From assembly GCA_948442615.1 (NCBI GenBank), contig CAOJSG010000001.1:1-64000 (forward strand): DNA of 64,000 nt, given 5' to 3'. Position numbers and translations under genes: made by a program. Of this stretch, positions 18,421 to 47,701 are shown piece by piece. Each line of letters opens with the position of its first letter. The stretch's first letter is position 1. The notes beneath the pieces are model-generated. The model ran no database searches. It was not told where the DNA came from and saw nothing but the letters and a program-made list of their open reading frames with translations. This DNA comes from an uncultured Alistipes sp. GTDB taxonomy: Bacteria > Bacteroidota > Bacteroidia > Bacteroidales > Rikenellaceae.

Positions 18421-18443
18421 GGGTGGAAGAAGGGGCTCGAACC
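18421..18443. repeat. att direct repeat (distal), GGGTGGAAGAAGGGGCTCGAACC
   Basis: Identical to 47868..47890, the 3' end of tRNA-His. Confidence 0.92.
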
Positions 18444-18561
18444 TATGATTATTTACCTCTATATATCAATGTGTTGTAGCTGATTCTTCGTTGTCGGGTC
18501 ACTGGTTTGTTGGGGTAATTTTACGTCCCAATACTTTCCCTTGCTACAAAGCAAAGATACG

Positions 18562-18783
18562 TTATATGTTTCTCATCTCAAAATATGATCCAATAAATCT
18601 GATCTCCAACTCGCGGGAGCGTTGATTGTAAATCGACCATTGGGGATAGTCGCAGTCGACGACCAGCACGTCCCGCTGCAAGGTATAGTGGAGATGGCTG
18701 GCAAGCAGAACGGTGAAGGTTGATTTTCCGACGCCGCCTTTTTGATTGCATACGGTAATGCTTACAGGTGTGTTTCCCCATAA
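18562..18783 (-). pseudogene. Truncated TraA/ParA-like ATPase (N-terminal fragment only)
   Basis: Read in the frame not shown by the track: ...GNTPVSITVCNQKGGVGKSTFTVLLASHLHYTLQRDVLVVDCDYPQWSIYNQRSRELEIRFIGSYFEMRNI*; deviant Walker A NQKGGVGKST and DCDYPQ motif typical of Bacteroides TraA/ParA. Confidence 0.85.
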
Positions 18784-18837
18784 TTTATTTCTTCAGGAAG
18801 GCGCGATTTAACAAGTTTGTTCAAGAGTGCGTTCACG

Positions 18838-18857
18838 CACGAACTCCCGAGTTCGTG
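18838..18857. repeat. Perfect inverted repeat CACGAACTC-CC-GAGTTCGTG upstream of the traA fragment
   Basis: 9-bp arms, 2-nt centre. Confidence 0.8.
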
Positions 18858-19020
18858 AATTCAGGAATAAGGTCCGGCACGAACAAAGGGAAGCATTTCA
18901 TCGCGGAGGAACAGAGGACGGAAACTGTTCCCGAAATCCTGAAAAACAGGATCAATGAACAAATACAATAGCAGTTTCATGGATGGATTGTTGGACGTTT
19001 GCCCGCAAGGTAGTGCGGTT

Positions 19021-19090
19021 TTCAGGGATTGGTTCCCGGTGTCCTCCGGAGGCCTTGCATGGCCGACAAGAGCGCTTTTTAATCCCTGAA
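19021..19090. repeat. Inverted repeat TTCAGGGATT ... AATCCCTGAA (50-bp spacer)
   Basis: 10-bp perfect arms at 19021-19030 and 19081-19090, in the mob-upstream noncoding region. Confidence 0.75.
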
Positions 19091-19204
19091 GATCCTCGTA
19101 ATATTGCGGTGGAGAATCTGCACGTGTTTTTTTGTTTCGGGGATGCTCTTTTAAGAGCGTAGATGCTCTTTTTGGATGCCAAAACTGTACCCGTCGCCTG
19201 ACGG

Positions 19205-19261
19205 GAGCGAGGTGTACCTTTGTCCGACAACCGGCGGTTTGTCCGACAAAGGTCCTCGCTC
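19205..19261. other. Candidate oriT: large inverted repeat immediately 5' of mobA
   Basis: GAGCGAGGtgtACCTTTGTCCGACAAcC ... GGTTTGTCCGACAAAGGTCCTCGCTC; arms complementary apart from a 3-nt insertion, a 1-nt indel and one mismatch; each arm contains the near-palindrome TTGTCCGACAA. Confidence 0.55.
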
Positions 19262-19310
19262 TGCGAGGCGGGTGAGGTTCTCCCAAGTCGAACCCCAAAT
19301 CTTCCATCGA

Positions 19311-19721
19311 ATGACCCGTCAGAGAAAATGCAACACTCAAATCCCGGCCCCGAGTTATAAATACTCGTTCCGGCTCAACGATGAGCAGGAGATCCGCTTC
19401 CGGCAGATGCTCGCTGCCGCCGGATTGGAGCACAACCGCAGCCGGTTTATCGTCAAACGACTCTTTGCCGAGCGCTTCGAAGTCATCCGCCGCGACCCTT
19501 CAAAGGTGGAGTTTCTGACACGACTCAACGACCTTTATTTCCAGTTTCAGCGCGTCGGGAACAACTACAATCAGGTGGTTCGGGCCATCAACAGCCACTT
19601 CTCCAACGTCTCGATTCCGCGCCAAATCGCTGCGCTGGAACAGCATACACGCGAGTTGAAAGCATTGAGTGTCGAGATTCTGAATCTTACCAAACAGGCC
19701 GAAGGATGGTTGCGAATATAA
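19311..19721 (+). CDS. mobA: MobA-like mobilization accessory protein
   Basis: MTRQRKCNTQIPAPSYKYSFRLNDEQEIRFRQMLAAAGLEHNRSRFIVKRLFAERFEVI...DLYFQFQRVGNNYNQVVRAINSHFS; RHH-type Bacteroidetes MobA pattern. Confidence 0.85.
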   Translation: MTRQRKCNTQIPAPSYKYSFRLNDEQEIRFRQMLAAAGLEHNRSRFIVKRLFAERFEVIRRDPSKVEFLTRLNDLYFQFQRVGNNYNQVVRAINSHFSNVSIPRQIAALEQHTRELKALSVEILNLTKQAEGWLRI

Positions 19722-20926
19722 GGACGGGAGCAACCGTCGGCGGAGCTGTCCGCTACAACGAGGAGAAGGTCAACCGGGGAAAGGCCGAGGTGCTCTTCTG
19801 GAATCGGATGCTTGATCCGTTCGATGCCACGGGACGCATGAGCCACGAACGGTGCATGGCCAGCTTCGAACCCTTCCTGCAGGCCAACCGGCGAACGACC
19901 AACACGGTTTTCCACGTCTCACTGAACCCCTCGCCCGAAGACCGCCTAACCGATGAGCAACTGGGCGAGATCGCCCGCGAGTATATGGAGCGGATGGGAT
20001 ATGGCGAACAACCATACATCGTATTCAAGCACCGGGATATTGCGCGCGAGCACCTGCATATCGTGTCGCTTCGTATCGACAGAGAGGGTCGGAAATTGCC
20101 CCATGACTTCGAGGCCCGACGTTCCGTAGAGATTACGCGGGACCTCGAGCAAAAATACGGGCTACACCCGAGCATCAAAGGCCAGGAGCTGCAGGATCGG
20201 GAGGAATTGCGCAAGGTAGATTATCAGAAGGGCGATGTCAAGCAACAGGTCTCCTCCACCGTAAGGTCGTGCCTGCGGCATTACCGCTGCGCCTCCTTCG
20301 GAGAGTGGCGGACGCTGCTCGAAGCCTTTAATGTCTCGGCCGAGGAACGGACCGGAACCATCGACGGACGCGATTATGCCGGGATGATTTACGGGGCGCT
20401 GACCGATGACGGCTATGGTATCGGAACGCCGTTCAAGTCGAGCCGCATCGGGAAGGATGTCGGATATGAGGCCCTGCAACGCTATTACGAGCGTTCGAAA
20501 ATGGCCTTGAAGGAGCCCGGAGCTCTTGACGGATTGCGGGGAAAGGTTGCGGATGAAATGGAGAGGTGTACAAACCGGGCGGAGTTTTACGAGCGGTTGC
20601 ACGACAAGGGCGTTGATGCGGTATTCCGCCTCAATGCTGCGGGACGAATCTACGGCGTAACCTTTATCGACCATAAGCAGGAAATCGTAGCCAACGGCTC
20701 CCTGCTGGGGAGGAATTTCTCGGCCAACGCCTTCGAACGGCAGTTTTATCCCGAAGCGGAGAACAGAAGAGTCTATCGGCATACTTCAGAAAAAACATCG
20801 TCAAAAGAGTTACACAGGTCGGATCAGTTGATCCATCCGCTTGACGCGATTCTGGAATTGGCGGACGTGCAGGTTTATGAGGATCAGATACAAATTCGAC
20901 GAAAGAGACGTAGTCGACGGAAATAA
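19706..20926 (+). CDS. mobB: MobB-like relaxase (relaxase/mobilization nuclease domain)
   Basis: MVANIRTGATVGGAVRYNEEKVNRGKAEVLFWNRM...NTVFHVSLNPSPEDRLTDEQLGEIAREYMERMGYGEQPYIVFKHRDIAREHLHIVSLRID; overlaps mobA by 16 nt. Confidence 0.92.
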   Translation: MVANIRTGATVGGAVRYNEEKVNRGKAEVLFWNRMLDPFDATGRMSHERCMASFEPFLQANRRTTNTVFHVSLNPSPEDRLTDEQLGEIAREYMERMGYGEQPYIVFKHRDIAREHLHIVSLRIDREGRKLPHDFEARRSVEITRDLEQKYGLHPSIKGQELQDREELRKVDYQKGDVKQQVSSTVRSCLRHYRCASFGEWRTLLEAFNVSAEERTGTIDGRDYAGMIYGALTDDGYGIGTPFKSSRIGKDVGYEALQRYYERSKMALKEPGALDGLRGKVADEMERCTNRAEFYERLHDKGVDAVFRLNAAGRIYGVTFIDHKQEIVANGSLLGRNFSANAFERQFYPEAENRRVYRHTSEKTSSKELHRSDQLIHPLDAILELADVQVYEDQIQIRRKRRSRRK

Positions 20927-21224
20927 CCTAAAAGCTGAATCTTGTTTGAATGTTATAGAATGACGTTATGTTAGGAGGGTAATTGCATTAAGTTGGAAAT
21001 CAAAATATTGTCGTCTGAGATGAGTGCTTTCTAGAAAATATGCATTTTCTCGGAAATGTTTAAAATTAGATTATTATATTTTGTTGTAGATTACAATAGT
21101 TAGTCGGCTGACTTCTTGTTTAAATTATAATATATCAAAGAATGTCTACCTACCAATTCTTATTTTAGATTCATAGATTTCAGTCATTAGGAAAAAATAT
21201 TTCGGGGAATTTTTATATGGGGCC

Positions 21225-21255
21225 TTGCTATATATTGGGAAAAAACATATCTTTG
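21225..21255 (+). promoter_or_regulatory. Bacteroidetes promoter TTG-N20-TATCTTTG upstream of the GH2 gene
   Basis: ccttgctatatattgggaaaaaacatatctttg; about 340 nt 5' of the GH2 start. Confidence 0.65.
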
Positions 21256-21598
21256 TTCTCGGGTAAAAGAAAGTACGGATTAAATTCAATAAAAATCCGT
21301 AAGGTTACATTAGGTATGTACATAAGCATTCGAAGGTTCTCTTCTTTGTTTGTGTAGATGTCTTATTTTATAATCCCCATATCTTTTTGGCATAACACAG
21401 TCGATGTGAAGACACGTTCGACTTCTATTTTTTTATATCATCGGAATTCCCGAGGAGTATAACACTTGTTTAAGAACTGAGCCGTACTTATGTCTTCTAA
21501 TCTTTGTGTTTCGAATCTCTCCTGTGTGATTCGTTATAAGAATTCGCTTGAACAGAATACGAATCTTTACATATCTATATTACTTTATTTTTCGTCAT

Positions 21599-23836
21599 AT
21601 GATTGCATCAGACAGAATCTTGGCATCCCTTCAATGGGAGCTGGGATACTCCAAACAACCGAATATCTCTCCTTCTGAATTTTACCCGGCACAAGTACCA
21701 GGTGCGGTCCAACTGGATATTGCCCGTGAAAAACAGTATCCTGATTATGCTCATGGAAATAATTTTGAAATGTTCGGCTGGATGGAGGATCTGTATTATA
21801 CATACCGTGCTTCATTCCTGAGTCCGGTGCTGACTCCCGGACAGTCGCTGTGGTTTGTATCGAAAGGTATCGACTATGAATTTGAAATTATATTGAATGG
21901 GGAGCTTCTCCATCGGCAAGAGGGAATGTTTACCCCAGTAGAAGTGGACCTCACTTCTTCGCTGGCTCATGAGAATATATTGGAAGTTCGGATTGCCCCT
22001 GTTCCTAAGAGAGTCCCATATCCGATTGACAGAAGTCAGGCCTCTCATGTTGTGAAACCGGCAGTCAGTTATGGCTGGGATTGGCATCCTCGGTTAATTC
22101 CCCTCGGTATCTGGGACGAAACAGGAATAGAGATTCGCAATTCGACCTTTATTGATACGTTGGATCTCCGCTATGAGTTGTCGGAACACTTCAAATGGGC
22201 GGATATTGTCTTGCAGGTACAACTTGTTGCAAATAATCCTGTTAAGTATGTTTGGTGGCTGAAAGATCCATCCGGGAATCAGGTGTTTGAAAAACGTGGC
22301 GACTGTCGATCTTGTACCATTGTTGAATGCAGCATCGATAATCCTCGACTGTGGTGGACTCACGACCACGGGATGCCGGAGCTTTATGAATCGGTATTCG
22401 AGATCCTCGATGAAAAAGGATACGTATTGGATCGTCGGACAACCCGGGTTGGTTTTCGCAGAATTCGGCTGGTTCCTAATGACGGAGCTTGGAATGAACC
22501 GAAGGATTTTCCCAAAGGGCCCAGTGTTTCGCCCATTCAGTTAGAGTTGAATGGACGTCCAATTTTTGCAAAAGGAACAAACTGGGTCAATCCGGAGATT
22601 TTCCCCGGGACGATCACAGAACAACGCTACCAAGAGTTGCTTGAAATAGCTCGGATGGCGAATTTCAACCTGCTTCGGATTTGGGGAGGTGGTATTGTCA
22701 ACAAGGAGTCGTTTTATGACCTTTGTGATCGGATGGGGTTGCTTGTTTGGCAGGAATTTCCGCTTGCTTGCAATAACTATCCGGATGATGCGCATTATCT
22801 TTCCATCCTAGAACAAGAGGCTGTGTCGATCATCAAGCGTTTGCGCAACCATGCATGTTTGGCAATCTGGTGCGGGGGTAATGAACTGTTTAACAGTTGG
22901 TCCGGGATGACGGATCAATCTTTGGCCTTACGGTTGTTGAATGCACTCTGTTATCGATATGACCGCCAAACGCCGTTTTTGCCTACCTCTCCAGTTTATG
23001 GAATGGGACATGGCAATTACGTTTTCAAATGGGAAGGAAAAGAAGTGTTGGAAACGATGATCGAAAGCCGGAATACAGCGTATACCGAATTCGGTATTCC
23101 CGGACTTCCCTCTCGAAGTGTTTTGGAACGGGCTCTGCCTGTTGAGGAGTTGTTCCCGCCGCGTGACAATTCAGCTTGGCAGAGCCACCATGCCTATCAT
23201 GCCTGGGATGTAATGCCCGACACGTGGCTGTGTGCGAGTTTGCTGGAAGAGTATTTCGGCAAAGCCCGTTCTCTTGACGAACTGATCGAGCAGAGTCAAT
23301 TACTGCAGAGTGTTGGATACAAAGCTATATTTGAGGAGGCTCGGCGTCAGAAACCCTATTGCTCAATGGCACTGAACTGGTGTTTCAATGATGTATGGCC
23401 TGCGGCGGGCAACAATTCGCTGGTCGCTTATCCCAAAGAGCCTAAACCGGCTCTTGGTGCTGTGTCGGCATCTTGCCGTCCGGTTTGTGCCAGTGCCAGA
23501 GTACGTAAATTTGTTTGGACAGCAGGTGAAATATTCGAGGCTGAATTGTGGCTTCTCAATGACCGATTTACGGAGGCTCCAGGAGTGTTGATTAAGAGCT
23601 ATTTGATTTGGGGGGCAGATTCGCAGTTCCTTCTGGAATGGCATACTCCGAATCTGGTTTCGAACCGAAACGAAGCCGGTCCGACCCTCCGGTTTATTCT
23701 TCCGTCCGATATGATCGGATGTTTCTCTCTGAGATTGGAGGTTGTCGGGCATCCTGAATATGATTCAGAGTATACTTTGTTATGCCGGGGAAACAAGGCG
23801 ATGGCAAAAAAGGATACAGCAATCATGAATGTATAA
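21599..23836 (+). CDS. Glycoside hydrolase family 2, beta-mannosidase-like
   Basis: PGAVQLDIAREKQYPDYAHGNNFEMFGWMEDLYYTYRASF...SYGWDWHPRLIPLGIWDETGIE...ANFNLLRIWGGGIVNKESFYDLCDRMGLLVWQEFPLACNNYPD...IWCGGNELFN. Confidence 0.9.
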   Translation: MIASDRILASLQWELGYSKQPNISPSEFYPAQVPGAVQLDIAREKQYPDYAHGNNFEMFGWMEDLYYTYRASFLSPVLTPGQSLWFVSKGIDYEFEIILNGELLHRQEGMFTPVEVDLTSSLAHENILEVRIAPVPKRVPYPIDRSQASHVVKPAVSYGWDWHPRLIPLGIWDETGIEIRNSTFIDTLDLRYELSEHFKWADIVLQVQLVANNPVKYVWWLKDPSGNQVFEKRGDCRSCTIVECSIDNPRLWWTHDHGMPELYESVFEILDEKGYVLDRRTTRVGFRRIRLVPNDGAWNEPKDFPKGPSVSPIQLELNGRPIFAKGTNWVNPEIFPGTITEQRYQELLEIARMANFNLLRIWGGGIVNKESFYDLCDRMGLLVWQEFPLACNNYPDDAHYLSILEQEAVSIIKRLRNHACLAIWCGGNELFNSWSGMTDQSLALRLLNALCYRYDRQTPFLPTSPVYGMGHGNYVFKWEGKEVLETMIESRNTAYTEFGIPGLPSRSVLERALPVEELFPPRDNSAWQSHHAYHAWDVMPDTWLCASLLEEYFGKARSLDELIEQSQLLQSVGYKAIFEEARRQKPYCSMALNWCFNDVWPAAGNNSLVAYPKEPKPALGAVSASCRPVCASARVRKFVWTAGEIFEAELWLLNDRFTEAPGVLIKSYLIWGADSQFLLEWHTPNLVSNRNEAGPTLRFILPSDMIGCFSLRLEVVGHPEYDSEYTLLCRGNKAMAKKDTAIMNV

Positions 23837-23857
23837 CTTAATTTAAACAAACAAAAA

Positions 23858-24868
23858 ATGAAAAAAATGTTTTTGGCCCTTTGTGCCGTATTATTGAACT
23901 TATCCTTGTCGTATGCTCAGTATCCCGCCGATTGGCGCCCTGCCGATGTGCACGGTGCTCTGTCTGTGAAAGGGCGGTTTCTGTGTAACGAACAAGGCGA
24001 TACGATTACGTTGCGAGGAGTCAGCTTCGGATGGCATAATCTTTGGCCGCGATTTTACAATCAAGCAGCATTGAAGTGGTTGAAAAACGATTGGAAAGCT
24101 TCGGTTTTCCGTGCAGCAATGGGAGTGTATAAAGGCGTAGAAGACGGATATCTTGAAAATCCGGACTTCGCTTTGAACTGCATTGAGCCTGTGATTCGGG
24201 CTGCCATCGCCGAGGGAGCATATGTCATTATCGATTGGCATGCCCATGATTTCCATCCGGAGGAGGCCAAAGCCTTTTTCCGGAAAATGGCTCGCGAATA
24301 TGGTGCATATCCGAATGTGCTGTATGAGATCTTCAACGAACCAACACACAAGCATTTCTGGCCTGAAATCAAAGCTTATGCCGAAGATGTGATCGCTGCG
24401 ATCCGAGAGTTTGATCCCGATAACATTGTTATTGTCGGAACTCCGTCTTGGGATCAGCACGTCGATATTGCCGCTGCAGATCCGATTCGAAAGTTCGACA
24501 ATATCATGTATGCTTGTCATTTTTATGCAGCCAGCCACAAGGATGGTAATCGGGCTCGTGTACAAAAAGCGCTTGATATGGGGCTTCCCATTTTCTTTAC
24601 CGAATGTGCAGGAATGGAACATACGGGAAATGGATTCTTGGATATTCCGGAATGGACCCGCTGGGTTGAATTTATGGAGAAGAACCATTTGAGCTGGGTA
24701 AACTGGTCGATTTCGAACAAGAATGAAACTTGCTCGATGATCCTTCCGCGTGGTAGCTATGAGGGTGGCTGGGCCGATGATGTAATCAAACCGGCCGGAA
24801 TCCAGTGTCGGAAATTCTTGAGGCAATACAACGGAAATGATCCGCTTTACCAGAAATCTGGGGAATAG
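23858..24868 (+). CDS. Secreted GH5-family glycoside hydrolase (endoglucanase-like)
   Basis: Signal peptide; YGAYPNVLYEIFNEPTHKHFWPEIKAYAEDVIAAIREFDPDNIVIVGTPSWDQHVD; FFTECAG. Confidence 0.9.
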   Translation: MKKMFLALCAVLLNLSLSYAQYPADWRPADVHGALSVKGRFLCNEQGDTITLRGVSFGWHNLWPRFYNQAALKWLKNDWKASVFRAAMGVYKGVEDGYLENPDFALNCIEPVIRAAIAEGAYVIIDWHAHDFHPEEAKAFFRKMAREYGAYPNVLYEIFNEPTHKHFWPEIKAYAEDVIAAIREFDPDNIVIVGTPSWDQHVDIAAADPIRKFDNIMYACHFYAASHKDGNRARVQKALDMGLPIFFTECAGMEHTGNGFLDIPEWTRWVEFMEKNHLSWVNWSISNKNETCSMILPRGSYEGGWADDVIKPAGIQCRKFLRQYNGNDPLYQKSGE

Positions 24869-24883
24869 GGATATAAATTGTAT

Positions 24884-24924
24884 AAGGAACCCGGATTTGA
24901 CTTCATGTCGAATCCGGGTTCCTT
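24884..24924. terminator. Bidirectional terminator between the convergent GH5 and gntR genes
   Basis: aaggaacccggatt tgacttcatgtcg aatccgggttcctt. Confidence 0.85.
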
Positions 24925-24941
24925 ATTTGTGACTCTTTATT

Positions 24942-25706
24942 TTATGATTTTATGTTGACTAATTGAGGCTTGGCGTCAACGGAGAACTGGTATTTGTCTC
25001 CTCTGTACAATGAATACTCGATTTCGATGACACTCCCTCCCTGAGCAATACAAACTCCGTTGAGAATGAATACCGACAGAGGTATCTCATTCTCGAAGTA
25101 GTTGTCATTACTTTCCGGGTAGAGTACCATAGTTCCGATTGTCCGATGTACATTCTCAATCTGCAGCTTGTATTTCTCTTCGTAAATTCGAATTAAAGGT
25201 TGTGTCGGTTCGATAAGATGGATGTTTCGACAGGCAGTCATGGAGATATAGCGGGTGTCATCTTTCATCAGAATATCGTTGGCATATCGTAGACGCCGAT
25301 ATTTGAGTACGGGTCCGTCAATGGAAAAAACCTGTCCGTTCACGTTGGTTGAAATGCCATTTTCAATGACAGTCTTTTCCATCAGAATATTTTTGGGAGT
25401 GAATCCTTCGTGGATCAAGTTGTCCTCGAAACTCTCTTTGATGGCATCAAGCGATCCCAGCATACGCGTTAGGTGCATGTCTTTTGAGCGATTGAGCACA
25501 AATGTTCCTTTGCCCTTGATTCGGATGACCCATCCCTTCAATTCGATATTAAGCAGGCTTTTGCGTGCAGTCGTATTGCTAACTCCATATTGTTGCATGA
25601 GTTCATGCTCGGATGGGACACGATCACCGGGAGCTAGTTCTCCGTTCATGATCCGTTCGATGATATCTTGACTGATTTGGAGATATTTGCTATTATTTGT
25701 ATTCAT
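24942..25706 (-). CDS. GntR-family transcriptional regulator
   Basis: YLQISQDIIERIMNGELAPGDRVPSEHELMQQYGVSNTTARKSLLNIELKGWVIRIKGKGTFV wHTH, then UTRA-like domain. Confidence 0.92.
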   Translation of the reverse strand: MNTNNSKYLQISQDIIERIMNGELAPGDRVPSEHELMQQYGVSNTTARKSLLNIELKGWVIRIKGKGTFVLNRSKDMHLTRMLGSLDAIKESFEDNLIHEGFTPKNILMEKTVIENGISTNVNGQVFSIDGPVLKYRRLRYANDILMKDDTRYISMTACRNIHLIEPTQPLIRIYEEKYKLQIENVHRTIGTMVLYPESNDNYFENEIPLSVFILNGVCIAQGGSVIEIEYSLYRGDKYQFSVDAKPQLVNIKS

Positions 25707-25757
25707 GACTTCGTATCGTTGGTTTGCGGTTCGCTATTTTGTTGAAAGGGGGTGTTG

Positions 25758-27113
25758 TCAATTGGGGACAATGGCTCCATGAATCGATAATAATTGCTTC
25801 ACCTTGTCGAGATCGACATTCGATGGAGTGGTGTTCTCTTTGCAGGCTATAGCTGCAACTGCTCCTGCTGCTTGTCCCATCGCCATGCAGGAGGCTTGTA
25901 CCCGAAGTGCGGAATTTGCCAGTCGATCGCTGCTGATGCATCGTCCGGCCACGATCAGGTTCTTACTCCCTTTGGGAATCAAGGCCCGTAACGGAATTGT
26001 TGCGACGACGGAATCCTTGAGGTGTCGGGGCTCAACACCATGGCTTACGTGCAGGTCAATCGGATAGAATGAATATGCTAGTGCGTCGTCGAATTTACGT
26101 CCTGATAAATAATCGTCGAGAGTGATGCAATATAGGCCGTTAATTCGGTAGGTCTCACGAACTGCAGTTTCTGGAGCCATGTACTTGATCCGGGTATTTT
26201 CACATCCGGGAAGACTCCGTACAAATCGAACGATGCGCAATAATGATTTACGCCCTTCCATATTGGCTGCTGAATGAGTCTGGGCCGTTGATGAGTCCGC
26301 TCCGGGAACATGTTGTGCCGCTAATCCTTTCCGCGCATTCAGCAAGGCTTCCAAGCCATTGTAAGCATCGGTTTCCAAGAGGCGTCCCGTTTGGATTGCC
26401 TCATCAAAACTTTGGCGGATCGCTTCTTTTTCCAATCCGGAATAGTCGTATCCCTCCAGCTCGAAAATCAGGGAGCCAGGTTGAGTTTCCTCCTCTTTGA
26501 TACGATCGAAACCTGCGAGATCAACTGCTGCTGCATCCCCCGTACAATCAATCAGTTGCTTGGCATGGTAAATTCGGGTCGAACCTTTTCCCGCAGTCTT
26601 TACGATCCATCTTTTTTTGGTATGTGCGATTTCTGTCGGGGTTTCGTAATAGTGCAAGTCGACTCCGGCATTCAGGCACATCTCTTCGGATAACAGCGCA
26701 TAGAGATAACCGTTGATGGGAATTTGATGTTTCCAATGTGCATGCCCATAAGGGATTGAGAAATCCGGCAGCGAATCGGCATTCATTCGAACAGTTTGTT
26801 TGACCAGTTTCCAGCCGATTCCTCCGATGATTTGTTGTCCCCAGGCATGGAAAAGTCCGGGGATGGAGACCCCACCGGTTGTTATCGTTCCTCCGAGTTG
26901 ACTGCCCGATTCGATCAGAATGGTTTTGCAATTGGCTTTGGCAGCCTGAATGGCTGCAATTGTTCCGGATGTTCCACCTCCGATCACCAGAATCTCTGTA
27001 TCGACAGCTATTCGATTCGCATCGCAACCCGAGGCACAGCATAACAGAATAGGAAGCAAATGTTTAAGGTATGTCTTTCTGAGCTTCACTTTTGGTAGTT
27101 TTGATGGTTGCAT
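25758..27113 (-). CDS. FAD-dependent oxidoreductase with predicted lipoprotein signal
   Basis: LLPILLCCASGCDANR lipobox; VDTEILVIGGGTSGTIAAIQAAKANCKTILIESGSQLGGTITTGGV; C-terminal IVAGRCISSDRLANSALRVQASCMAMGQAAGAVAAIA. Confidence 0.88.
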   Translation of the reverse strand: MQPSKLPKVKLRKTYLKHLLPILLCCASGCDANRIAVDTEILVIGGGTSGTIAAIQAAKANCKTILIESGSQLGGTITTGGVSIPGLFHAWGQQIIGGIGWKLVKQTVRMNADSLPDFSIPYGHAHWKHQIPINGYLYALLSEEMCLNAGVDLHYYETPTEIAHTKKRWIVKTAGKGSTRIYHAKQLIDCTGDAAAVDLAGFDRIKEEETQPGSLIFELEGYDYSGLEKEAIRQSFDEAIQTGRLLETDAYNGLEALLNARKGLAAQHVPGADSSTAQTHSAANMEGRKSLLRIVRFVRSLPGCENTRIKYMAPETAVRETYRINGLYCITLDDYLSGRKFDDALAYSFYPIDLHVSHGVEPRHLKDSVVATIPLRALIPKGSKNLIVAGRCISSDRLANSALRVQASCMAMGQAAGAVAAIACKENTTPSNVDLDKVKQLLSIHGAIVPN

Positions 27114-27227
27114 TGTATTGTTTCTGTGGTAAAGATAGGCGCAATTCGATTCTGATCTAACAATCACAAAGGTAGAAGAAATTTTGTAAAAAAACGAGAT
27201 ATTATTCGTTTTTTGTGAAATAGTTAT

Positions 27228-27256
27228 TATATTTGCCGTATAAACCTAGTGCACTA
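27228..27256 (+). promoter_or_regulatory. -7 element TATATTTG and perfect palindrome TAGTGCACTA (27247-27256), candidate GntR operator
   Basis: ttatatttgccgtataaaccTAGTGCACTAacctag upstream of the MFS gene. Confidence 0.5.
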
Positions 27257-27267
27257 ACCTAGAACCG

Positions 27268-28497
27268 ATGAAAAGAACCTCTCTATATTACTGGCTGATC
27301 GTAGTGCTGTTGATGTTTGCTACGGCGTTGAGTTTCATGGATCGCCAGGTGCTTTCCATTTCGATTCTCAAGATTCGGGAAGAACTGGGAATTACCGATG
27401 TTGAGTACGGATTCATCAACTCCGGATTTCTGATCAGTTATACCTTGATGTTCACGTTAGGCGGCATCTTCGTAGATCGCTTTGGAAGTAGGAAGGGACT
27501 TGGCTATTCCGTTGGTTTCTGGTCTGTAGCTACCGCATTACACGCTTTGGCTCATAAGGTCCTGCACTTTGGATTCTTTCGGTTCTTGTTGGGAATCGGA
27601 GAGGGCGTGTGTTTCCCGGGAGCGGTAAAAGCCGTACAGGAATGGGTCCCCAAACAACGCCAAGCTACGGCAAACGGTTTGGCTATCGGAGGATCGGCCG
27701 TAGGTTCGGTTGTCGCATTGCCGATGTGTGCTCTTCTGCTCCAATATGCTAACTGGCGTTACATATTTCTCGGTTGTGGTATTTTTGGCCTGATGTGGTT
27801 TGTTACGTGGTGGTTGATGACCAGTCCCGGAAAGTATGCTCGTTACGGAAAAGGAACACCGCCCGTTCTGGAACGTAAACGTTTTGATTGGCGCCCCTTA
27901 CGTGATGCCATGAAGTCGAAAGAGGCTAGGGTGTTTATTATCATGCGTTTTTTGCTCGATCCGATCTTTTATTTCTATATGTTTTGGATCCCGAAATACC
28001 TGAGCGATGCCCGTGGAATGAGTATCGATGATATCGGTTATACGACCTGGATTCCATTTCTGGCTCTTGGCGTGGCCAACGTAATTGGCGGCTATGTCTC
28101 CGATGCGATCTATACGAAGACAAAGAATCTCGATTTTTCGCGGAAAATTGTGATGGGCTTTGCCGCTGCTCTGACATTGCCGGTAATTTTTGTCAATTTT
28201 TACCAAAGTACAGCATGGGTTGTCGCTGTCATGTCGCTGGCCTTTTTTGCGCATGGTCTGTGGATAACGAATTATATCACCAGCATTGGTGATATGTTCG
28301 GCAAGACCGCTACGTCGACGATTGTGGGACTTTCGGGCTCGGCCGGGGCCATCTCATCGTTGATCATAAATCCGCTGACGGGATACATCGTGGCCTATTC
28401 CTACAATGTCCTTTGGGCCTATGCCGGGATCATGTATCCGGTTGCATTTTTGATTTTTCTCATTTTTATCCGGACGCTAAAATTCAGGAGTGCCTAA
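27268..28497 (+). CDS. MFS transporter (ACS/hexuronate-type)
   Basis: MFATALSFMDRQVLSISILKIREELGITDVEYGFINSGFLISYTLMFTLGGIFVDRFGSRKGLGYSV...LLGIGEGVCFPGAVKAVQEWVPKQRQATANGLAIGGSAVGSVVALP. Confidence 0.93.
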   Translation: MKRTSLYYWLIVVLLMFATALSFMDRQVLSISILKIREELGITDVEYGFINSGFLISYTLMFTLGGIFVDRFGSRKGLGYSVGFWSVATALHALAHKVLHFGFFRFLLGIGEGVCFPGAVKAVQEWVPKQRQATANGLAIGGSAVGSVVALPMCALLLQYANWRYIFLGCGIFGLMWFVTWWLMTSPGKYARYGKGTPPVLERKRFDWRPLRDAMKSKEARVFIIMRFLLDPIFYFYMFWIPKYLSDARGMSIDDIGYTTWIPFLALGVANVIGGYVSDAIYTKTKNLDFSRKIVMGFAAALTLPVIFVNFYQSTAWVVAVMSLAFFAHGLWITNYITSIGDMFGKTATSTIVGLSGSAGAISSLIINPLTGYIVAYSYNVLWAYAGIMYPVAFLIFLIFIRTLKFRSA

Positions 28498-28540
28498 TTT
28501 TTTTTGTTATCTTCAACATAGAGCGTTAAGTTATTTTGTT

Positions 28541-30022
28541 ATGGAGAATAAGTGTAAGTCAAACGATGCGGTCTGCGACAAGACTGCATTGCCGTCCGAC
28601 AACAAACAGCCTCGTGTGGGGGTTTTTGGAATCGGCTACGATGTCTATTGGAAGCAGTTCCCGGGATTGGAGGAGGAGATGAAGGGAAAATTCCGGACCT
28701 TCAAGGAAATGTTGCCTGCAGAGGTCTCTGTCTTAGATTTCGGGATTGTGGATTCTCCGGAACGGGCTTATGAGGCTGTTCAGCAGATGCAAAGCGGGAA
28801 TCTGGATCTGCTGTTCTGCGATATGCTCACCTATGGGACTTCGGGGACCTTCGGGACCATCGCCCGGAACATTCAGGCTCCGATCGTTTTGGTAGCCTTG
28901 CAACCGCTGCAGGCTCTGGATTACGGGAAGGCCAGTACCTACATGCAATTGATGAACGACGACATTTGTGCCGTTCCGGAATTTACCGGTGTGGCACGGC
29001 GTCTCGGTCGGCCTGTTCCGGATGTGGTGATCGGAACGCTCTATGGCGACGAGCAGGTACATGAGGAGATTTTGGAGTATTGCCGGATTGCGCGGGTGTT
29101 GCATGATCTGAAATACGCAAGATTGGGGCATATTGGGCATCCTTTGAATGCGATGTTGGATATGCACACCGATTCTACAGCACTCACGGCTTGTTTTGGA
29201 TGTCACACGGTGGAGTGCGAACCGAATGAATTGATGGCTTGTCTGCGGAGTGTCGACGCAAAGGATTTGGAACAGCGGAAACAAGAAATTCTGAATTTCT
29301 TCGATACACCGGATCCGGTTTCCGATCCCATTTCGATGAAGCTGCGTGACGAGGACCTTCAGACCGCGGCCGAGGTTAGCCTTGCCCTAGATGCTTTTGT
29401 TGAAAAACGAGGTTTGAACGGATTGTCCTACTATTACGACGGAGAACCGGAGGGTGAGATTCGGCGACTGATGACCAATTTGGCCGTAGGAAATTCGTTG
29501 CTCACAGCACGGCATATTCCAATGTGTGGGGAGTCGGACCAAAAGACGTTGATTGCTTTGATGATCATGGACCGACTCGGTATCGGAGGCAGTTTCGCGG
29601 AATTCCATCCTATCGATTTCAACGAAGGATTTGTACTCGTGGGGCATGATGGGCCTCACAACATCTCTATCGCAGAAGGGAAACCCGTGTTGAGAAGTCT
29701 GAAAAAGTATCACGGGAAACCGGGGGCCGGAGCCGGTGTGGAGTTCAAGATCAAGGAGGGACCGATTACGATTCTGTCGATTAATTCAACACCCGATGGT
29801 CGTTTCAAGTTTGTTATCGCCGAAGGCGATTCGGTTGGAGGTCCGATTCCGGCAACTGGCAATACCAATACCCGCGGATTCTTTGGTCCCGATATCAGGG
29901 CGTTCCTCAAAGCTTGGATGAAAGAGGGGCCTACCCACCATTTTGCGCTGGGCATCGGACACCATGCAAAAACGCTGGCTCGAATTGCTGAATATCTCGG
30001 CCTGGAAGTCGCAATAGTTTAA
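28541..30022 (+). CDS. L-fucose/L-arabinose isomerase-family protein
   Basis: RVGVFGIGYDVYWKQFPGLEEEMKGKFRTFKEML...VLDFGIVDSPERAYEAVQQMQSGNLDLLFCDMLTY...GHIGHPLNAMLDMHTD...EFHPIDFNEGFVLVGHDGPHN. Confidence 0.85.
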   Translation: MENKCKSNDAVCDKTALPSDNKQPRVGVFGIGYDVYWKQFPGLEEEMKGKFRTFKEMLPAEVSVLDFGIVDSPERAYEAVQQMQSGNLDLLFCDMLTYGTSGTFGTIARNIQAPIVLVALQPLQALDYGKASTYMQLMNDDICAVPEFTGVARRLGRPVPDVVIGTLYGDEQVHEEILEYCRIARVLHDLKYARLGHIGHPLNAMLDMHTDSTALTACFGCHTVECEPNELMACLRSVDAKDLEQRKQEILNFFDTPDPVSDPISMKLRDEDLQTAAEVSLALDAFVEKRGLNGLSYYYDGEPEGEIRRLMTNLAVGNSLLTARHIPMCGESDQKTLIALMIMDRLGIGGSFAEFHPIDFNEGFVLVGHDGPHNISIAEGKPVLRSLKKYHGKPGAGAGVEFKIKEGPITILSINSTPDGRFKFVIAEGDSVGGPIPATGNTNTRGFFGPDIRAFLKAWMKEGPTHHFALGIGHHAKTLARIAEYLGLEVAIV

Positions 30023-30144
30023 GTCAATTGATGTTTAACCCCAACCCCGATTGCCTATGGTGCATACACTTTTGTAACCGACAAAACAACTTTTACCCAT
30101 ATCTTTATCTTTACAACGATTTTTCAACCTAAAATTAACGATCA

Positions 30145-33100
30145 ATGATTAAATTTTTCAAACTTGAAGCGGAATCGGCTGGTACCCGGCGGCAAGAATC
30201 ACGCGTTACGGCCGGTTCGCTGATCGCAAGGATCGTGACCGTGGCCTTATTATTGGCTGTTCCAAGCATACAGGTTCTGGCACAACAGTCAACATCACAA
30301 GTAAAAGGTAGCGTTAAGGCCGAAAACGGGATGCCGATGCCTGGTGTAAGTGTTATTGTCAAGGGAACGGTGAAGGGCACAACTACCGATGCCAAAGGAA
30401 ACTATGTCATACAAGCCAAAAGCTCAGATTATCTTGTATTCTCGTTCATGGGGTATCAGAGCGTGGAAGAGCGGGTTGGAGCCCGGACTTCGATTGAAGT
30501 GGTCCTCACCGAGCAGGCGACGGCGTTGGACGATGTGGTTGTCATTGGATACGGAACGGCCCGAAAAAGCGATCTGTCGGGAGCCGTTGCTTCAATCCGA
30601 GCGGACGATGTGATGAGTGGAACGGTTAACACCAGTATCAATCAGGCTCTGCAGGGTCGTTTGGCTGGTGTTACGGTAGGCCAGAACGATGGCGCTCCGG
30701 GCAGCGGTGTAAATATCAATATCCGCGGTGTCAATACCTTCCTGTCCAATTCCCAGCCGCTGTATGTGGTGGACGGTATTCCGTTCGATCCCCCGGCTAC
30801 GCCTCAAAGTGCCGAGAATACGGACAACAGTGCCGAGGCTGTCTCCAATGCCATGGCATTCATCAATCCCCATGACATCGAGTCAATCGAAGTGTTGAAA
30901 GATGCCTCTGCTACGGCGATCTACGGTTCGCGTGGTGCCAATGGTGTCATTCTGATTACAACGAAGAAGGGAACCAGCCGGAAACCTACGGTCGAGTTCA
31001 GTGCCAACCTGAGTATTTCGAAGGTTCGGAAAACCATCCCCGTTTTGAATGGTTATGAATTCGCATCGTATCGAAATGAACAGCAGGAAAACGGTTTCAT
31101 CTATGATGGTGTGCCCTATACGGTGAAAGTTTTCCCGGGACGTTTCGAGTTTGCGACTGGCAGCGACGGCACAATCATCGGAGCTGAATACAAGCCGGCT
31201 CCGGAGGATTATCTGAATCCCGGCTGGGTATACGGCAAGGATCCTACGGGGCGAGAGTGGCGTTCCTGGGTGGAAGATACCAACTGGCAGGACGAAATTT
31301 TCCAGCTTGGGCTTTCTCAGGAGTACAATATCCAGGTCTCAGGAGCTACGGACAAGGGTAATTATGCTTTTTCAGCCAACTATACGTCGCAGGACGGTAC
31401 GATCAAAAGCACCGGATACGACCGTTATACGCTGCGGGCGAATATTTCGCAAGAGATCATCAAGAACATAACGGCCGGTATTAATCTCAGCTATGCCAAT
31501 TCGATTACCGATTTCGCCAAATCGAACTCCATGAGCCAGAGTTTCCTGCGCTCGGCCCTGATGTTCCCGTCGACGATCAGCAAGAATGACTTCTCGCAAA
31601 ATGAAGAGTTGGCAAGTCTGGTTGCCAATCCGGTCTCCTATGTGAAGAATGCCAAGAACCAATTGACCAGCGACAACGTATTCTCTTCGGCCTTTGTTTC
31701 CATTAAACTGGCTCCGGGGCTGACGTTCCGTCAAAATTTGGGATTAAGTTATTTTGCCAATGAACGCAGCACCTATTACAACCGTGAAACGGGTGAGGGA
31801 TACGCTCCGACAGTCAATGGCCGGGGTGGATACTCGGACAACTCACAGCGGAATCTGACCGAAGAGTCCATGCTGACCTATGCGAAGGTTTTCAATAAGA
31901 TCCATAGCCTGAATGTAGTGGGAGCCGTGACGTTCGAACAGACTTCGTACACTTCGAAGACGATGTCCGGTACGAACTTCCCTTCGGACATTACGGAGAA
32001 CTATGATATGGGAGCAGCCTTGAATCCTGGGCCTCTGGTAACTGACAAGCGTCGTAACCGCCTCTTTTCGTTTCTGGGACGTGTCAATTACGTGTTGAAA
32101 GATCGCTATATCTTTACGGCCAGCTTCCGCCGAGACGGATCGAGCAAGTTTACCAAGCAAAACCGCTGGTCCAATTTTGCATCGGGGGCTGTCGCGTGGC
32201 GCATCTCCGAGGAGCCGTTTGTCAAGCGACTCAACTTTTTCGACAACCTGAAACTGCGCGCCAGCTTCGGTCAAACCGGAAACCAGGGTATTCCCGACTA
32301 TATGACTTCATATATGTTGGCGATGAAAAAATATGTTTTCGACGGCAAGGATGCGAGCGGTTATCGATCGAGTACGGCCTTCAATCCGGATCTGAAATGG
32401 GAAACGACCGATCAGTACAATGTGGGTCTTGACATGGCTTTCCTCAAGAACCGGATCAGCCTTACGGTGGAATATTACTTCAAGAACACGCGGGATCTGT
32501 TGCAGAATTTCAAGATTCCCGAGAGTAGCGGCTTTACGAATCAGATGATGAACCAGGGACGTGTGACCAACGAAGGTCTGGAAATTCAAGGTACGTTCCG
32601 GGTACTGGAACGAGCTGTTCGCTGGGGTATCGATGCCAATATCTCCTTTAACCGCAACCTGATCCACGATATGCCTTACGACCAGTTTGCAACACGCCTG
32701 TGGTATAGTGCTGACAACGCCTTCATCTTCAGAAACGGTTGCCCGATTGGTGCGATTTACGGTTATGTGGAAGATGGTTTCTATGACAACGAAGCCGAAG
32801 TCCGAGCCAATCCGGACTATGCGAATGCGTCGGACGCGACGGTAAAATCGATGATCGGTGAAATCAAGTACCGGGAGGGCAAACATATCATCGGTGACAC
32901 GAATCCTGACTATACGTTCGGAATTACCAATAACTTTTCGTGGAAGAACTTGACTTTCAGTTTCTTCATTCAGGGGGTGATGGGAAATGATATTTTCAAC
33001 GGCAACCTGCAGAACATCACGTTGTCATCGCAGTACAACATCACGAAGGATGCCTATTATTCCCGCTGGACTCCAGAGAACCGGGAGAATGCCAAGTGGC

Positions 33101-33402
33101 CGAAAGCATCGAATCAGGTCAAACGTACGTGGTTGCTTTCGAACCGCTATGTGGAGGACGGATCGTATGTCCGTCTGAAAAACATAAATATCGGATATAC
33201 GTTCGACCGACCGAAGTTCTGCAAGCACATCCGCAGCATAAACGTCTATGCCAGTGCGACGAACCTTCTCACGATTACGGGGTACAGTTGGTACGATCCG
33301 GACGTCAATGCTTTTGGTGGCGATGCGTCTCGCCGGGGAGTCGATATTTATTCTTATCCTACGAGCAAGACGTTCTCGATTGGAGTAAAAGTTCAGTTTT
33401 AA
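30145..33402 (+). CDS. SusC/RagA-family TonB-linked outer membrane transporter
   Basis: VKGSVKAENGMPMPGVSVIVKGTVKGTTTDAKGNYVIQ carboxypeptidase-regulatory domain; DDVVVIGYGTARKSDLSGAV; PLYVVDGIPFDPP; IYGSRGANGVILITTKKG. Confidence 0.97.
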   Translation: MIKFFKLEAESAGTRRQESRVTAGSLIARIVTVALLLAVPSIQVLAQQSTSQVKGSVKAENGMPMPGVSVIVKGTVKGTTTDAKGNYVIQAKSSDYLVFSFMGYQSVEERVGARTSIEVVLTEQATALDDVVVIGYGTARKSDLSGAVASIRADDVMSGTVNTSINQALQGRLAGVTVGQNDGAPGSGVNINIRGVNTFLSNSQPLYVVDGIPFDPPATPQSAENTDNSAEAVSNAMAFINPHDIESIEVLKDASATAIYGSRGANGVILITTKKGTSRKPTVEFSANLSISKVRKTIPVLNGYEFASYRNEQQENGFIYDGVPYTVKVFPGRFEFATGSDGTIIGAEYKPAPEDYLNPGWVYGKDPTGREWRSWVEDTNWQDEIFQLGLSQEYNIQVSGATDKGNYAFSANYTSQDGTIKSTGYDRYTLRANISQEIIKNITAGINLSYANSITDFAKSNSMSQSFLRSALMFPSTISKNDFSQNEELASLVANPVSYVKNAKNQLTSDNVFSSAFVSIKLAPGLTFRQNLGLSYFANERSTYYNRETGEGYAPTVNGRGGYSDNSQRNLTEESMLTYAKVFNKIHSLNVVGAVTFEQTSYTSKTMSGTNFPSDITENYDMGAALNPGPLVTDKRRNRLFSFLGRVNYVLKDRYIFTASFRRDGSSKFTKQNRWSNFASGAVAWRISEEPFVKRLNFFDNLKLRASFGQTGNQGIPDYMTSYMLAMKKYVFDGKDASGYRSSTAFNPDLKWETTDQYNVGLDMAFLKNRISLTVEYYFKNTRDLLQNFKIPESSGFTNQMMNQGRVTNEGLEIQGTFRVLERAVRWGIDANISFNRNLIHDMPYDQFATRLWYSADNAFIFRNGCPIGAIYGYVEDGFYDNEAEVRANPDYANASDATVKSMIGEIKYREGKHIIGDTNPDYTFGITNNFSWKNLTFSFFIQGVMGNDIFNGNLQNITLSSQYNITKDAYYSRWTPENRENAKWPKASNQVKRTWLLSNRYVEDGSYVRLKNINIGYTFDRPKFCKHIRSINVYASATNLLTITGYSWYDPDVNAFGGDASRRGVDIYSYPTSKTFSIGVKVQF

Positions 33403-33422
33403 CGCATGAAACCTAGAAAATC

Positions 33423-35192
33423 ATGAAAAAATACATCTTTCACTTCGTATTTTTGACTCTCCTGGCGATCGTACTTGGATCGTGTGAGAACCTGCTGGAA
33501 GAGAAGGTCTACTCGAAAATTACGGCTCAGGATATCGAAGATTCGGATGCCGGAGCCGATTTGTGGGTAACCGGTGCATATAATGGCTTGAATCGTTTTT
33601 TCATCTATCAGGAGTTTCCCCGCAATCTGGAGAACGACTGTGATTATGCAACGGGACCGAGCTGGGCTTTCGGAGAGACCGGTGCCGGTAACTTTCAGGG
33701 AAGTGCTCGGGAGGTTGATGCCACCTGGAAACTACCTTATGACCTAATCAATGTGACGAATGAAGCGATCTACAACATCGAACAGATGAACAACGTGACG
33801 CCAGAGCACAAGGAGAATTGTCTGGGCGAGTTAAAAATGCTTCAAGCCTATTGTTATTTTCTGATCGTTCGTGCTTATGGACCTTGCCCGATCTTCGAAA
33901 AGTCGATCAATCAAGGAGAGAATCCGCATCAGCCTCGCCGTTCGATACAAGAGGTATATGCTCATATTATCGATCTGCTGACCTATGCCAAGGATCATCT
34001 TTACAAACGGGGTGATTCCCGACTGGTTCAGGGCCGGGTTTGTGCTGCCGCTGCTGCGACGCTATTGGCCAAGGTCTATGTGACAATCGGTGCCGCATCG
34101 ATGCCGGACGGAGCCATTGTTTATGTGAAGGGTGGCAAACCCTACACGCTTGCAGAGGATGGAAAGACCAAGATTCTGACTAATCCACAAACATTAACCA
34201 TCTCTAAAAGACAGGTGGACGGGTATGAGGTTTTTGATTCCGAGACCTATTATCGTCTTGCTTTGACACTGGCAGAAGATGTGGTTTTGCACAAAAAATA
34301 TGGTAGCCATGACCTGCTTCCGTATGCAACTCTGTGGAAACAGGAGGGCCGCACGAATGAGGAACATTTCTTCTGCTATGTCGGTAAATCCGGTGATGAT
34401 CAGCTTGGTGCCTTGTTCCCCCGCTGGTATTCGGGGCAATGGGCTGCCGATGGGTATGCAATTGGCGGTACGCTCACTTGGGGATTGCGAGACCATTGGT
34501 ATAAACTTTTCGAGGAACAGGATCTGCGTATTGTCGATGGTGTTTACCACCGCTGGGTTCGCGCGAATGAATACAAAAACAATCGGGGCGGATTTTACCC
34601 CAATACTCCGGAATGGCGGCTCAAGGCTACAGGAAAAGATGAAGAGGGCAATTCGGTTCCTGGTTATCCTGTTGCCCCGTTTGATGATGGTCGGATCTAT
34701 ACGAATGCTATCGGTGAAAACTATTTGGCTTATGTTACCAAATATCAGGATGTTTCGGACCCCTCGCTGATGCGTACCGACGGTCTGTTCCCGTTCCTGC
34801 GCTACGCCGATGCCCTGTTAATTCTGGCTGAGGCCTCGAATGAGGTGAATGGTCCGAATTCGGAGGCTCTTAACGCCTTGAATGAGGTTAGAAGACGTAG
34901 CAATGCATCGGACAAGCATTTAGGAAGCATGGAAGAGGGCGGTTTGGCAACTAAGGAGCTTTTTAGATCGGCGGTACTTGAAGAACGGTCGATGGAGTTC
35001 GCTTTGGAATCCGACCGCCGCTGGGATTTGATTCGCTGGGGAATCTATCTGGATGTGATGAATGCGATCGGAGGTCCGGACGAAATTGGAACCAGCAAGA
35101 CGCGCATGGAACGTCACCTGTTGTACCCGATTCCCGAATCGGAGATTCAGGCCAACGAAGCGATCAATGAAAATAATCCGGGCTGGAATTAG
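33423..35192 (+). CDS. SusD/RagB-family nutrient-binding outer membrane lipoprotein
   Basis: MKKYIFHFVFLTLLAIVLGSCENLLEEKVYSKIT...FLRYADALLILAEASNEVNG...LNEVRRRS...LYPIPESEIQANEAINENNPGWN. Confidence 0.97.
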   Translation: MKKYIFHFVFLTLLAIVLGSCENLLEEKVYSKITAQDIEDSDAGADLWVTGAYNGLNRFFIYQEFPRNLENDCDYATGPSWAFGETGAGNFQGSAREVDATWKLPYDLINVTNEAIYNIEQMNNVTPEHKENCLGELKMLQAYCYFLIVRAYGPCPIFEKSINQGENPHQPRRSIQEVYAHIIDLLTYAKDHLYKRGDSRLVQGRVCAAAAATLLAKVYVTIGAASMPDGAIVYVKGGKPYTLAEDGKTKILTNPQTLTISKRQVDGYEVFDSETYYRLALTLAEDVVLHKKYGSHDLLPYATLWKQEGRTNEEHFFCYVGKSGDDQLGALFPRWYSGQWAADGYAIGGTLTWGLRDHWYKLFEEQDLRIVDGVYHRWVRANEYKNNRGGFYPNTPEWRLKATGKDEEGNSVPGYPVAPFDDGRIYTNAIGENYLAYVTKYQDVSDPSLMRTDGLFPFLRYADALLILAEASNEVNGPNSEALNALNEVRRRSNASDKHLGSMEEGGLATKELFRSAVLEERSMEFALESDRRWDLIRWGIYLDVMNAIGGPDEIGTSKTRMERHLLYPIPESEIQANEAINENNPGWN

Positions 35193-35219
35193 GGAAATGA
35201 CGATTAAAATAGAGAAGCT

Positions 35220-36467
35220 ATGAAAAAATACATGCAATACATATCCACGCTTTGCGCCGGAGCAATGGTGTTTTGGGCGTGCAATGACGTGGTTACCTAC
35301 AACGACGGGTATGATGACGGTCAGACTCCGTTCGGGCCTCCGGTCATTACGCATGTCACGACGGTAGGAGATCCGGATACGGATATTACGGCTGGCAGTT
35401 TCAACCAGATGATTGTGCTGTATGGCGAGAATCTGTCGCAGGTTCGGTCTTTACAGTTCAACGATCAGAATGCCGATCTGCGCGAGATTTATGCGGTGAA
35501 TGACCGTATTACGGTGAAGATTCCCAGTTCGGTTCCGGATCAGATCGACGATAAGATCAAACTCAAAACCTCCAAAGGTGAGACATCATATGATTTCAAG
35601 ATCGCATTTCCGGATCTGGTCATCTCTGGGATCTCGCATCATTTCGCACGCGCTGGGGAACAGGTTCAGATCCTCGGCGAGAATCTGAAACTCTACGACT
35701 TTACACCCGAAAAGGGATCGTTGACGATCGGAGGAAAGAAGGCCGCCATCGTTGCCTGCGAAGAGGGAGCCATGACCTTTACGGTTCCCGACGGACTTTC
35801 GGACAACGCCCCGATGATCTTGACCAGCGAACGCTTGAAAGCCGTTACCGGGGTCGAGCAGATCGAACTGACCTATCGGGATCGGGGATATACGATTCTG
35901 GATCCGTTCTCCGCGGATTATCCGACGCTTACCCTAAATGAGAAAGGTGAAACTTTTGCGACACAGGGTGGTGGCGATGCTCCCGCACCGCTGTTCGATG
36001 GATCGTGGTACTCCCGTTTCAATATGACGGCAACTTCCTATACTTGGTATTATCTGGTATATCAGAACCGATATCGGTTTGCACTGCCTCAGGATAATCC
36101 GCTCTGTGTTGAGATCTTGAATGATCTGTCGCAGTTCGAATTCCGCTATGAAATCCTCGTTCCTTCGGAAACGCCCATTCGGGGAACCAATCATCGATTT
36201 ATGGTCTTTTTGGGGCGCCGTCCTGCAAACACGAATCTGGAGTGGATTCCTGCAGCCAGCGGAACAGCCTATCATACTGATGGTCGATGGAAGACGGTCA
36301 GCATGTCGGGAAGCGACTATCTGAATCCGGATGGTACAACTCCGTTGAAGGAGGCTGGGAATCCTTTCGGATTGGCCTATATCACGGGCGGAACCGATTT
36401 GGATCTAGATGTAAGTGTTGCCAATTTCCGGATTTGCAAAAAAATGGGAGTGCGGATCTCTCAATAG
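35220..36467 (+). CDS. Surface glycan-binding lipoprotein (SGBP-like, IPT/TIG-type repeats)
   Basis: Lipobox FWACND; FNQMIVLYGENLSQVRSLQFNDQ; ARAGEQVQILGENLK; directly follows SusD. Confidence 0.8.
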   Translation: MKKYMQYISTLCAGAMVFWACNDVVTYNDGYDDGQTPFGPPVITHVTTVGDPDTDITAGSFNQMIVLYGENLSQVRSLQFNDQNADLREIYAVNDRITVKIPSSVPDQIDDKIKLKTSKGETSYDFKIAFPDLVISGISHHFARAGEQVQILGENLKLYDFTPEKGSLTIGGKKAAIVACEEGAMTFTVPDGLSDNAPMILTSERLKAVTGVEQIELTYRDRGYTILDPFSADYPTLTLNEKGETFATQGGGDAPAPLFDGSWYSRFNMTATSYTWYYLVYQNRYRFALPQDNPLCVEILNDLSQFEFRYEILVPSETPIRGTNHRFMVFLGRRPANTNLEWIPAASGTAYHTDGRWKTVSMSGSDYLNPDGTTPLKEAGNPFGLAYITGGTDLDLDVSVANFRICKKMGVRISQ

Positions 36468-36482
36468 TAGAATCAATCAGGG

Positions 36483-36516
36483 ACTCTCGGGATCCCAAGA
36501 TCCCGAGAGTTTTTTA
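36483..36516 (+). terminator. Intra-operon terminator/attenuator between SGBP and GH5
   Basis: ctctcgggatcccaagatcccgagagtttttt. Confidence 0.85.
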
Positions 36517-36519
36517 AAA

Positions 36520-37680: not shown

Positions 37681-37683
37681 CGA

Positions 37684-38751: not shown

Positions 38752-38755
38752 TTGT

Positions 38756-40129: not shown

Positions 40130-40135
40130 TCATAT

Positions 40136-41542: not shown

Positions 41543-41555
41543 ATACAGAATTCAG

Positions 41556-44072: not shown

Positions 44073-44086
44073 TCTGATTCACCGGT

Positions 44087-45358: not shown

Positions 45359-45438
45359 TTTTTATCTTTGAATTGAAGGTGGCCTGGAATAATTGATCTG
45401 CATTGAAAAGCAGTTGAATAATCCCATATAATTAAAAG

Positions 45439-45479
45439 TAAGGCCCCATGCAAACATATAAATTTGCATGGGGCCTTAG
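45439..45479 (+). terminator. Terminator at the end of the PUL operon
   Basis: taaggccccatgcaaacatataaatttgcatggggcctta. Confidence 0.85.
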
Positions 45480-46325: not shown

Positions 46326-46337
46326 ACAGTTCTTGCA

Positions 46338-46389: not shown

Positions 46390-46395
46390 TCTGCG

Positions 46396-47613: not shown

Positions 47614-47701
47614 GGCTGCATGTTTTTTAAGGGGTTAAACAAACGTTTGCAGCATGGGAGATATTGCGGTGCAAATCGATGTGGAACAATGCATTGTGCG
47701 T

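Follow-up and report, generated by a model that had tools for sequence, protein, structure and literature searches.

A conserved hairpin array upstream of mobA as the probable transfer origin of an integrative mobilizable element in Alistipes

Gut Bacteroidota swap sugar-use and resistance genes mostly via conjugation, and to our knowledge few of their origins of transfer (oriTs) have been mapped. The window analyzed here, 64,000 nucleotides (nt) of an uncultured Alistipes sp. (contig CAOJSG010000001.1), holds a mobilization region in which a noncoding interval rich in symmetries, 18838-19261, separates a divergent traA remnant from mobA and mobB; the initial annotation proposed this interval as an oriT. 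Is there an oriT beside mobA, where does it lie, and what element would it serve? From comparison with related loci, we conclude that positions 19190-19294, an array of four hairpins (H1 to H4; Table 1), are very probably the oriT of an integrative mobilizable element (IME) inserted at a tRNA-His gene.

The array stands out by conservation, folding, and covariation. A BLASTN search of 200 family genomes with 18780-19330 (551 bp) revealed a core of ∼100 nt (19190-19290) that is conserved in most of the distant Alistipes matches. As single-stranded DNA, 19188-19299 folds at −31.1 kcal/mol (z −5.4), and 0/200 dinucleotide shuffles were as good. In the stems of 18 Alistipes copies, 95.3% of cells are paired, and 16 of 33 pairs have changed on both sides. 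Cells changed on both sides number 71, versus 21 ± 3.5 in shuffles (0/500), and 0/500 shuffles reach the observed covariation on four of five measures, counts that are not probabilities, the sequences being related; sliding the partners by 1 to 3 columns lowers pairing to 36 to 45%. Alistipes has two quite different types of H2 (TTTGTCCGACAA and TTTGTATGCCGAAAA), each with its own matching partner arm. In the window, H2 consists of a base, AGCGAGG/CCTCGCT, an unpaired TGT on the 5' side that is invariant in A2, and an upper stem, ACCTTTGTC c GACAA / TTGTC c GACAAAGGT. H3, which stands apart as its own hairpin in other lineages, varies little within Alistipes. Conservation peaks in H4, all 19 nt of which are identical in Dysgonomonas; the fifth base of its loop varies in some Alistipes copies (TCCCGAGTC, TCCCCAGTC), and the loop consensus is therefore TCCNNAGTC.

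How does this core relate to the interval proposed at the outset? All four symmetries listed there were located, and TTGTCCGACAA does occur in both arms of the large inverted repeat; because the two copies are direct and each is nearly palindromic, the repeat retains one central C.C mismatch. This repeat is H2 and lies inside the conserved block, but the other three symmetries lie outside it. The inverted repeat at 19021/19081 and the GATGCTCTTTT direct repeat were dropped as oriT parts, since relatives keep neither. That an oriT adjoins mobA is supported by the comparisons, but its core is smaller than 18838-19261 and shifted. H1, H3, and H4 had been overlooked, and H4, with the likely nick region at 19281-19289, lies beyond the 3' edge of the interval; a fragment spanning 18838-19261, with neither H4 nor the 3' arm of H3, would for that reason probably fail as a transfer origin.

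The module extends far beyond Alistipes. With few exceptions, true Bacteroidota MobB loci with upstream sequence have it 30 to 105 nt 5' of mobA. At nearly all of the distant genome_contigs loci examined, the 11-mer CTCCNAAGTCG occurs 5' of mobA (L043, which has no match, is cut at a contig end). It also occurs upstream at 13 of the 16 further Bacteroidales MobB loci over the NF041325 cut-off (L142 being just under), with the variant CTCCCAAATCG in one of the 13 (L123); it was not found upstream of MobB-like genes scoring below the cut-off. A covariance model built from the 18 Alistipes copies alone recovered distant modules at E values of 3e-11 to 3e-3 (391 kb searched) and had no match at six sub-cut-off MobB-like controls; the groups in which it located the module upstream of mobA include Bacteroides, Parabacteroides, Dysgonomonas, Prevotellaceae, Sphingobacterium, Flavobacterium, and Chitinophaga. 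Run with strict filters on 198 phylum-wide genomes, the model had no match beyond the window's own genome, so the phylum-wide claims rest on separately gathered loci. In a circular CTnDOT/CTn341-type record from Bacteroides fragilis (tetQ-rteAB-rteC-mobABC-tra), the same H1-H4 module, with CTCCGAAGTCG, lies 86 nt 5' of mobA; the motif occurs once in the 41 kb of this element and once in the window, versus 0.12 expected. A second genomic CTCCGAAGTCG (C1:92250) was taken as chance, as the surrounding stretch has no model match and a genome-wide search revealed no MobB there. A plasmid DNA search with 18100-19720 gave no match, and a literal literature search for the loop sequence returned only unrelated-looking records. 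Most non-Alistipes loci (e.g., L022, L143, and L144) have a further, terminator-like hairpin, AATCCG...CGGATTTT, 5' of H1; in the window it is degenerate or absent.

Three features place the module in the oriT family of Bacteroid_MobA/MobB (MOBP-type): the adjoining relaxase gene belongs to that family, its inverted repeats are conserved through compensatory changes, and it has the conserved TCCNNAGTC loop common to CTnDOT/CTn341-type elements, in which the position of nic is presumptive. The gene calls for the traA remnant, mobA, and mobB were confirmed with Pfam, NCBIfam, and tblastn. HUH/MOBP relaxases are expected to have a tyrosine and HxD...HxH residues, and MobB keeps Y17 and H109-D111-H116-H118 across 23 family members. 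By sequence, no protein of solved structure is related to MobB, and MobA has a single match (E 0.09). The mobA product scores 109.8 bits against NCBIfam Bacteroid_MobA, under the cut-off of 150, and the traA' stub is similar to TraA/ParA for ∼61 residues and then stops.

The hairpins immediately precede mobA on its coding strand and could also be a structured mobA leader RNA (an attenuator or a protein-binding 5' untranslated region) or a small RNA like that beside the SGI1 oriT, and a double role is conceivable; an RNA would be just as likely to have covarying stems. Copies without a relaxase bear on this alternative. A model search of 122 Alistipes genomes gave ∼37 full-length module copies in 18 genomes, and L151 and 20 further regions, none longer than 20 kb, were scanned with MobA/MobB profiles. 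No MobA/MobB match lies within ∼10 kb of the module at L211, L212, L213, L214, L217, L219, L220 (of the CTn type), L225, and L228, and we give the count of relaxase-less loci as 8 to 9; L224 also lacks a match, but its region is cut by a contig end. At ∼8 further loci, MobB is missing or limited to at most the first 79 profile positions. Several relaxase-poor loci adjoin an integrase and a tRNA, and genomes with relaxase-less copies carry a complete MobB elsewhere, either close (G054, G022, and G093) or 44 to 45% identical (G101 and G160). Recent loss could explain part of this persistence. Since copies of the module survive the loss of mobA and mobB, a cis-acting oriT is favored over a leader RNA, which we consider highly improbable; in addition, the coding strand folds no better than its complement, and the module has no Rfam 15 match (E ≤ 1 in the window; E ≤ 0.5 in four relatives). 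At L202/L151 and L112/L222 (two genomes), mobB residues 1 to 30 are joined to ∼371 to 404 next to an integrase, as if the same internal deletion had recurred; the truncated mobB of L151 is beside a tRNA-Asp.

A second alternative concerns H2, each arm of which is palindromic. H2 might mainly be a double-stranded operator, with tandem palindromes (TTTGTCnGACAAA) through which MobA or MobB would autoregulate the mob operon, and the oriT would then be H4 only. L113, L117, L118, and L145, from some Bacteroidales, have in place of H2 a pair of consecutive hairpins, each formed by a single arm, an arrangement that suggests tandem palindromic protein sites, and in some Alistipes copies TACCTTTG in H2 resembles the Bacteroides −7 box. 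However, arm sequences change yet arm-to-arm complementarity is kept, as in the two H2 types of Alistipes, and H2 is retained without mobA; we therefore regard a mainly operator role as unlikely. Two copies (L219 and L225; G160:C1:3791 and G093:C1:242957) have a shortened H2 with a single TTTGTCCGACAA copy and a stem that still pairs, as expected from recombination between two direct TTTGTCCGACAA copies.

If H1 to H4 together form the oriT, transfer may proceed as follows. The integrase would excise the element, and MobA and MobB would assemble on the hairpin array, the assignment of protein to hairpin being conjectural. The active-site tyrosine of MobB (HUH/MOBP) would then cut one strand at a putative nic in or beside the H4 loop, and the single strand would exit via a coupling protein (VirD4/MobC) and a mating pore that are both supplied by a co-resident CTnDOT-type integrative and conjugative element (ICE), invoked because no mobC was found on the element. 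In the usual layout the inverted repeat is 5' of nic, which would favor the plus strand here. In 2010, Peed et al. reportedly located the oriT of CTn341 no more than 100 bp from mobA. A CTn341 oriT, its inverted repeat, and a nick site are mentioned in the literature (PMC5729914).

Apart from the relatedness behind the shuffle counts, several points weigh against the oriT assignment. The case is comparative throughout: that a strand is nicked, which strand this is, and that transfer follows are all inferred from it. Of 34 nonredundant copies, 29 have a minus strand that folds a little better, so weak a preference that folding was rejected as a guide to strand choice. L021 has a loop variant and no CTCCNAAGTCG match, and three other MobB loci also lack a match: L116 has too little upstream DNA, and L120 and L142 have in-frame stops. 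The loop of L225 is degraded (TCCCGAGTT), and such decay is found in some relaxase-less copies.

Table 1 Coordinates of the putative oriT, its host element, and neighboring features in the window
Feature	Position	Strand	Evidence or remark
Putative oriT core module, H1-H4	19190..19294	+	Conservation, covariation, model matches across Bacteroidota
H1, CCCGTC-gcct-GACGGG	19190..19205	+	Both-side changes in 4/6 pairs
H2, long hairpin	19206..19260	+	Both-side changes in 7/22 pairs
H3, CCTCGC-TCT-GCGAGG	19254..19268	+	5' arm common with H2 base
H4, GGTTC-TCCCAAGTC-GAACC	19276..19294	+	Both-side changes in 5/5 pairs
H4 loop TCCCAAGTC, consensus TCCNNAGTC	19281..19289	+	Almost invariant; proposed relaxase recognition/nick region
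mobA, relaxosome accessory protein	19311..19721	+	Pfam MobC_2, E 5.5e-39
mobB, MOBP-type relaxase	19706..20926	+	NCBIfam Bacteroid_MobB (NF041325), 479.5 bits, cut-off 400
traA' stub, ParA-type, truncated	18577..18759	-	tblastn, 46% over TraA residues 103-163
Integrated element (predicted IME, ∼29.4 kb) carrying the oriT	18444..47890		Boundaries from tRNA-derived direct repeats
att repeat, far end, GGGTGGAAGAAGGGGCTCGAACC, copy of tRNA-His 3' end	18421..18443	+	Exact 23-nt repeat
att repeat, tRNA end	47868..47890	+	Exact 23-nt repeat
tRNA-His, integration site	47868..47942	-	
Tyrosine integrase, adjoins tRNA-His	46396..47613	-	Pfam Phage_integrase, E 2.3e-14
RteC-like protein	45636..46325	+	Below Pfam cut-off; 72% identical relative in G150 element
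Cargo: GH2, GntR regulator, MFS, SusC/SusD, surface glycan-binding protein, GH5, others	21548..45358		
Palindrome CACGAACTC-CC-GAGTTCGTG	18838-18857		Between traA' and oriT, outside oriT core
Inverted repeat TTCAGGGATT / AATCCCTGAA	19021-19030 / 19081-19090		
Direct repeat GATGCTCTTTT	Starts 19142 and 19162		
Large inverted repeat	19205-19261		Hairpin H2

What element would this oriT serve? By its gene content, the host element is an IME, for which excision and mobilization in trans are predicted. As in elements of the iMOB type, there are an integrase and att repeats at both ends, together with its own relaxase and oriT and without mating-pore or coupling genes: tblastn with B. fragilis MobC found no mobC/VirD4 match in the window (no search aimed singly at other tra genes was made), and the larger open reading frames scanned with Pfam (not every frame) were cargo, mob, or integrase. 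A CTnDOT/CTn341-type ICE would have mobC/VirD4 and a tra operon; here, MobC has no match and traA is truncated. The integrase is at the tRNA end and mobB-mobA-oriT-traA' at the opposite end, and the cargo is a polysaccharide-utilization locus. The truncated traA and the failure to find mobC by similarity would also suit a decayed ICE remnant with an oriT that has lost its function in this strain. We think this improbable, given an intact oriT structure, mobA, mobB, integrase, and pair of att repeats, and given that sister elements of the same layout lie between exact 23-nt, tRNA-derived repeats at two other tRNAs. One, in G150, is a 25.1-kb element at tRNA-Thr with a 98% identical integrase; the other, in G087, is a 28.0-kb element at tRNA-Gly whose MobB frame has one stop. 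Related copies of the att repeat have different outer flanks (L005/L149 and L085/L152). The two sister elements have few or no close cargo proteins in common with the window island.

The IME combines traits of several known systems. The order traA-(oriT)-mobA-mobB is that of the CTn341/CTnDOT mob region (mobABC, divergent traA, and oriT near mobA), but mobC was not detected, traA is only a stub, the loop is TCCCAAGTC instead of TCCGAAGTC, and the stem sequences differ. IMEs with a relaxase (iMOB, PMC11389934; NBU1, Tn4555, and Tn4399, PMC5704250) likewise have an integrase, an oriT, and a relaxase and depend on a helper for coupling protein and mating pore; unlike them, the window element has the two-gene Bacteroid_MobA/MobB module of ICEs, a tRNA-His site, and sugar-use cargo. 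The Alistipes modules beside integrases without MobA/MobB resemble oriT-only elements (iOriT, PMC11389934; SGI1- and MGI-type islands), whereas the window element keeps mobA and mobB; the relaxase-less loci are its relatives, and their mobility is predicted.

We give about even credence to a broader proposal: that the module represents a phylum-wide oriT family, in which a fold of three or four covarying hairpins is conserved over sequence and the relaxase target lies in the loop of the last hairpin, and that many relaxase-less Alistipes islands inserted at tRNAs travel on the MobB of co-resident elements. The fold itself may be undescribed, a tentative view from a literature check restricted to open-licence papers. 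A short, recognizable oriT fold with an almost invariant loop predicts movable islands, relaxase-less ones included, and the loop names the bases whose mutation would probe MobB recognition.

Two minor features lie near the ends of the element. The terminator downstream of tRNA-His is duplicated (18352-18444 versus 47798-47890; 79% identical over 94 columns, including the repeat), and the element therefore seems to supply a tRNA 3' end and a terminator of its own. The palindrome at 18838-18857 folds above chance (z −3.9), and three relatives (L005, L014, and L152) carry an identical copy; it is possibly an operator, separate from the oriT core.
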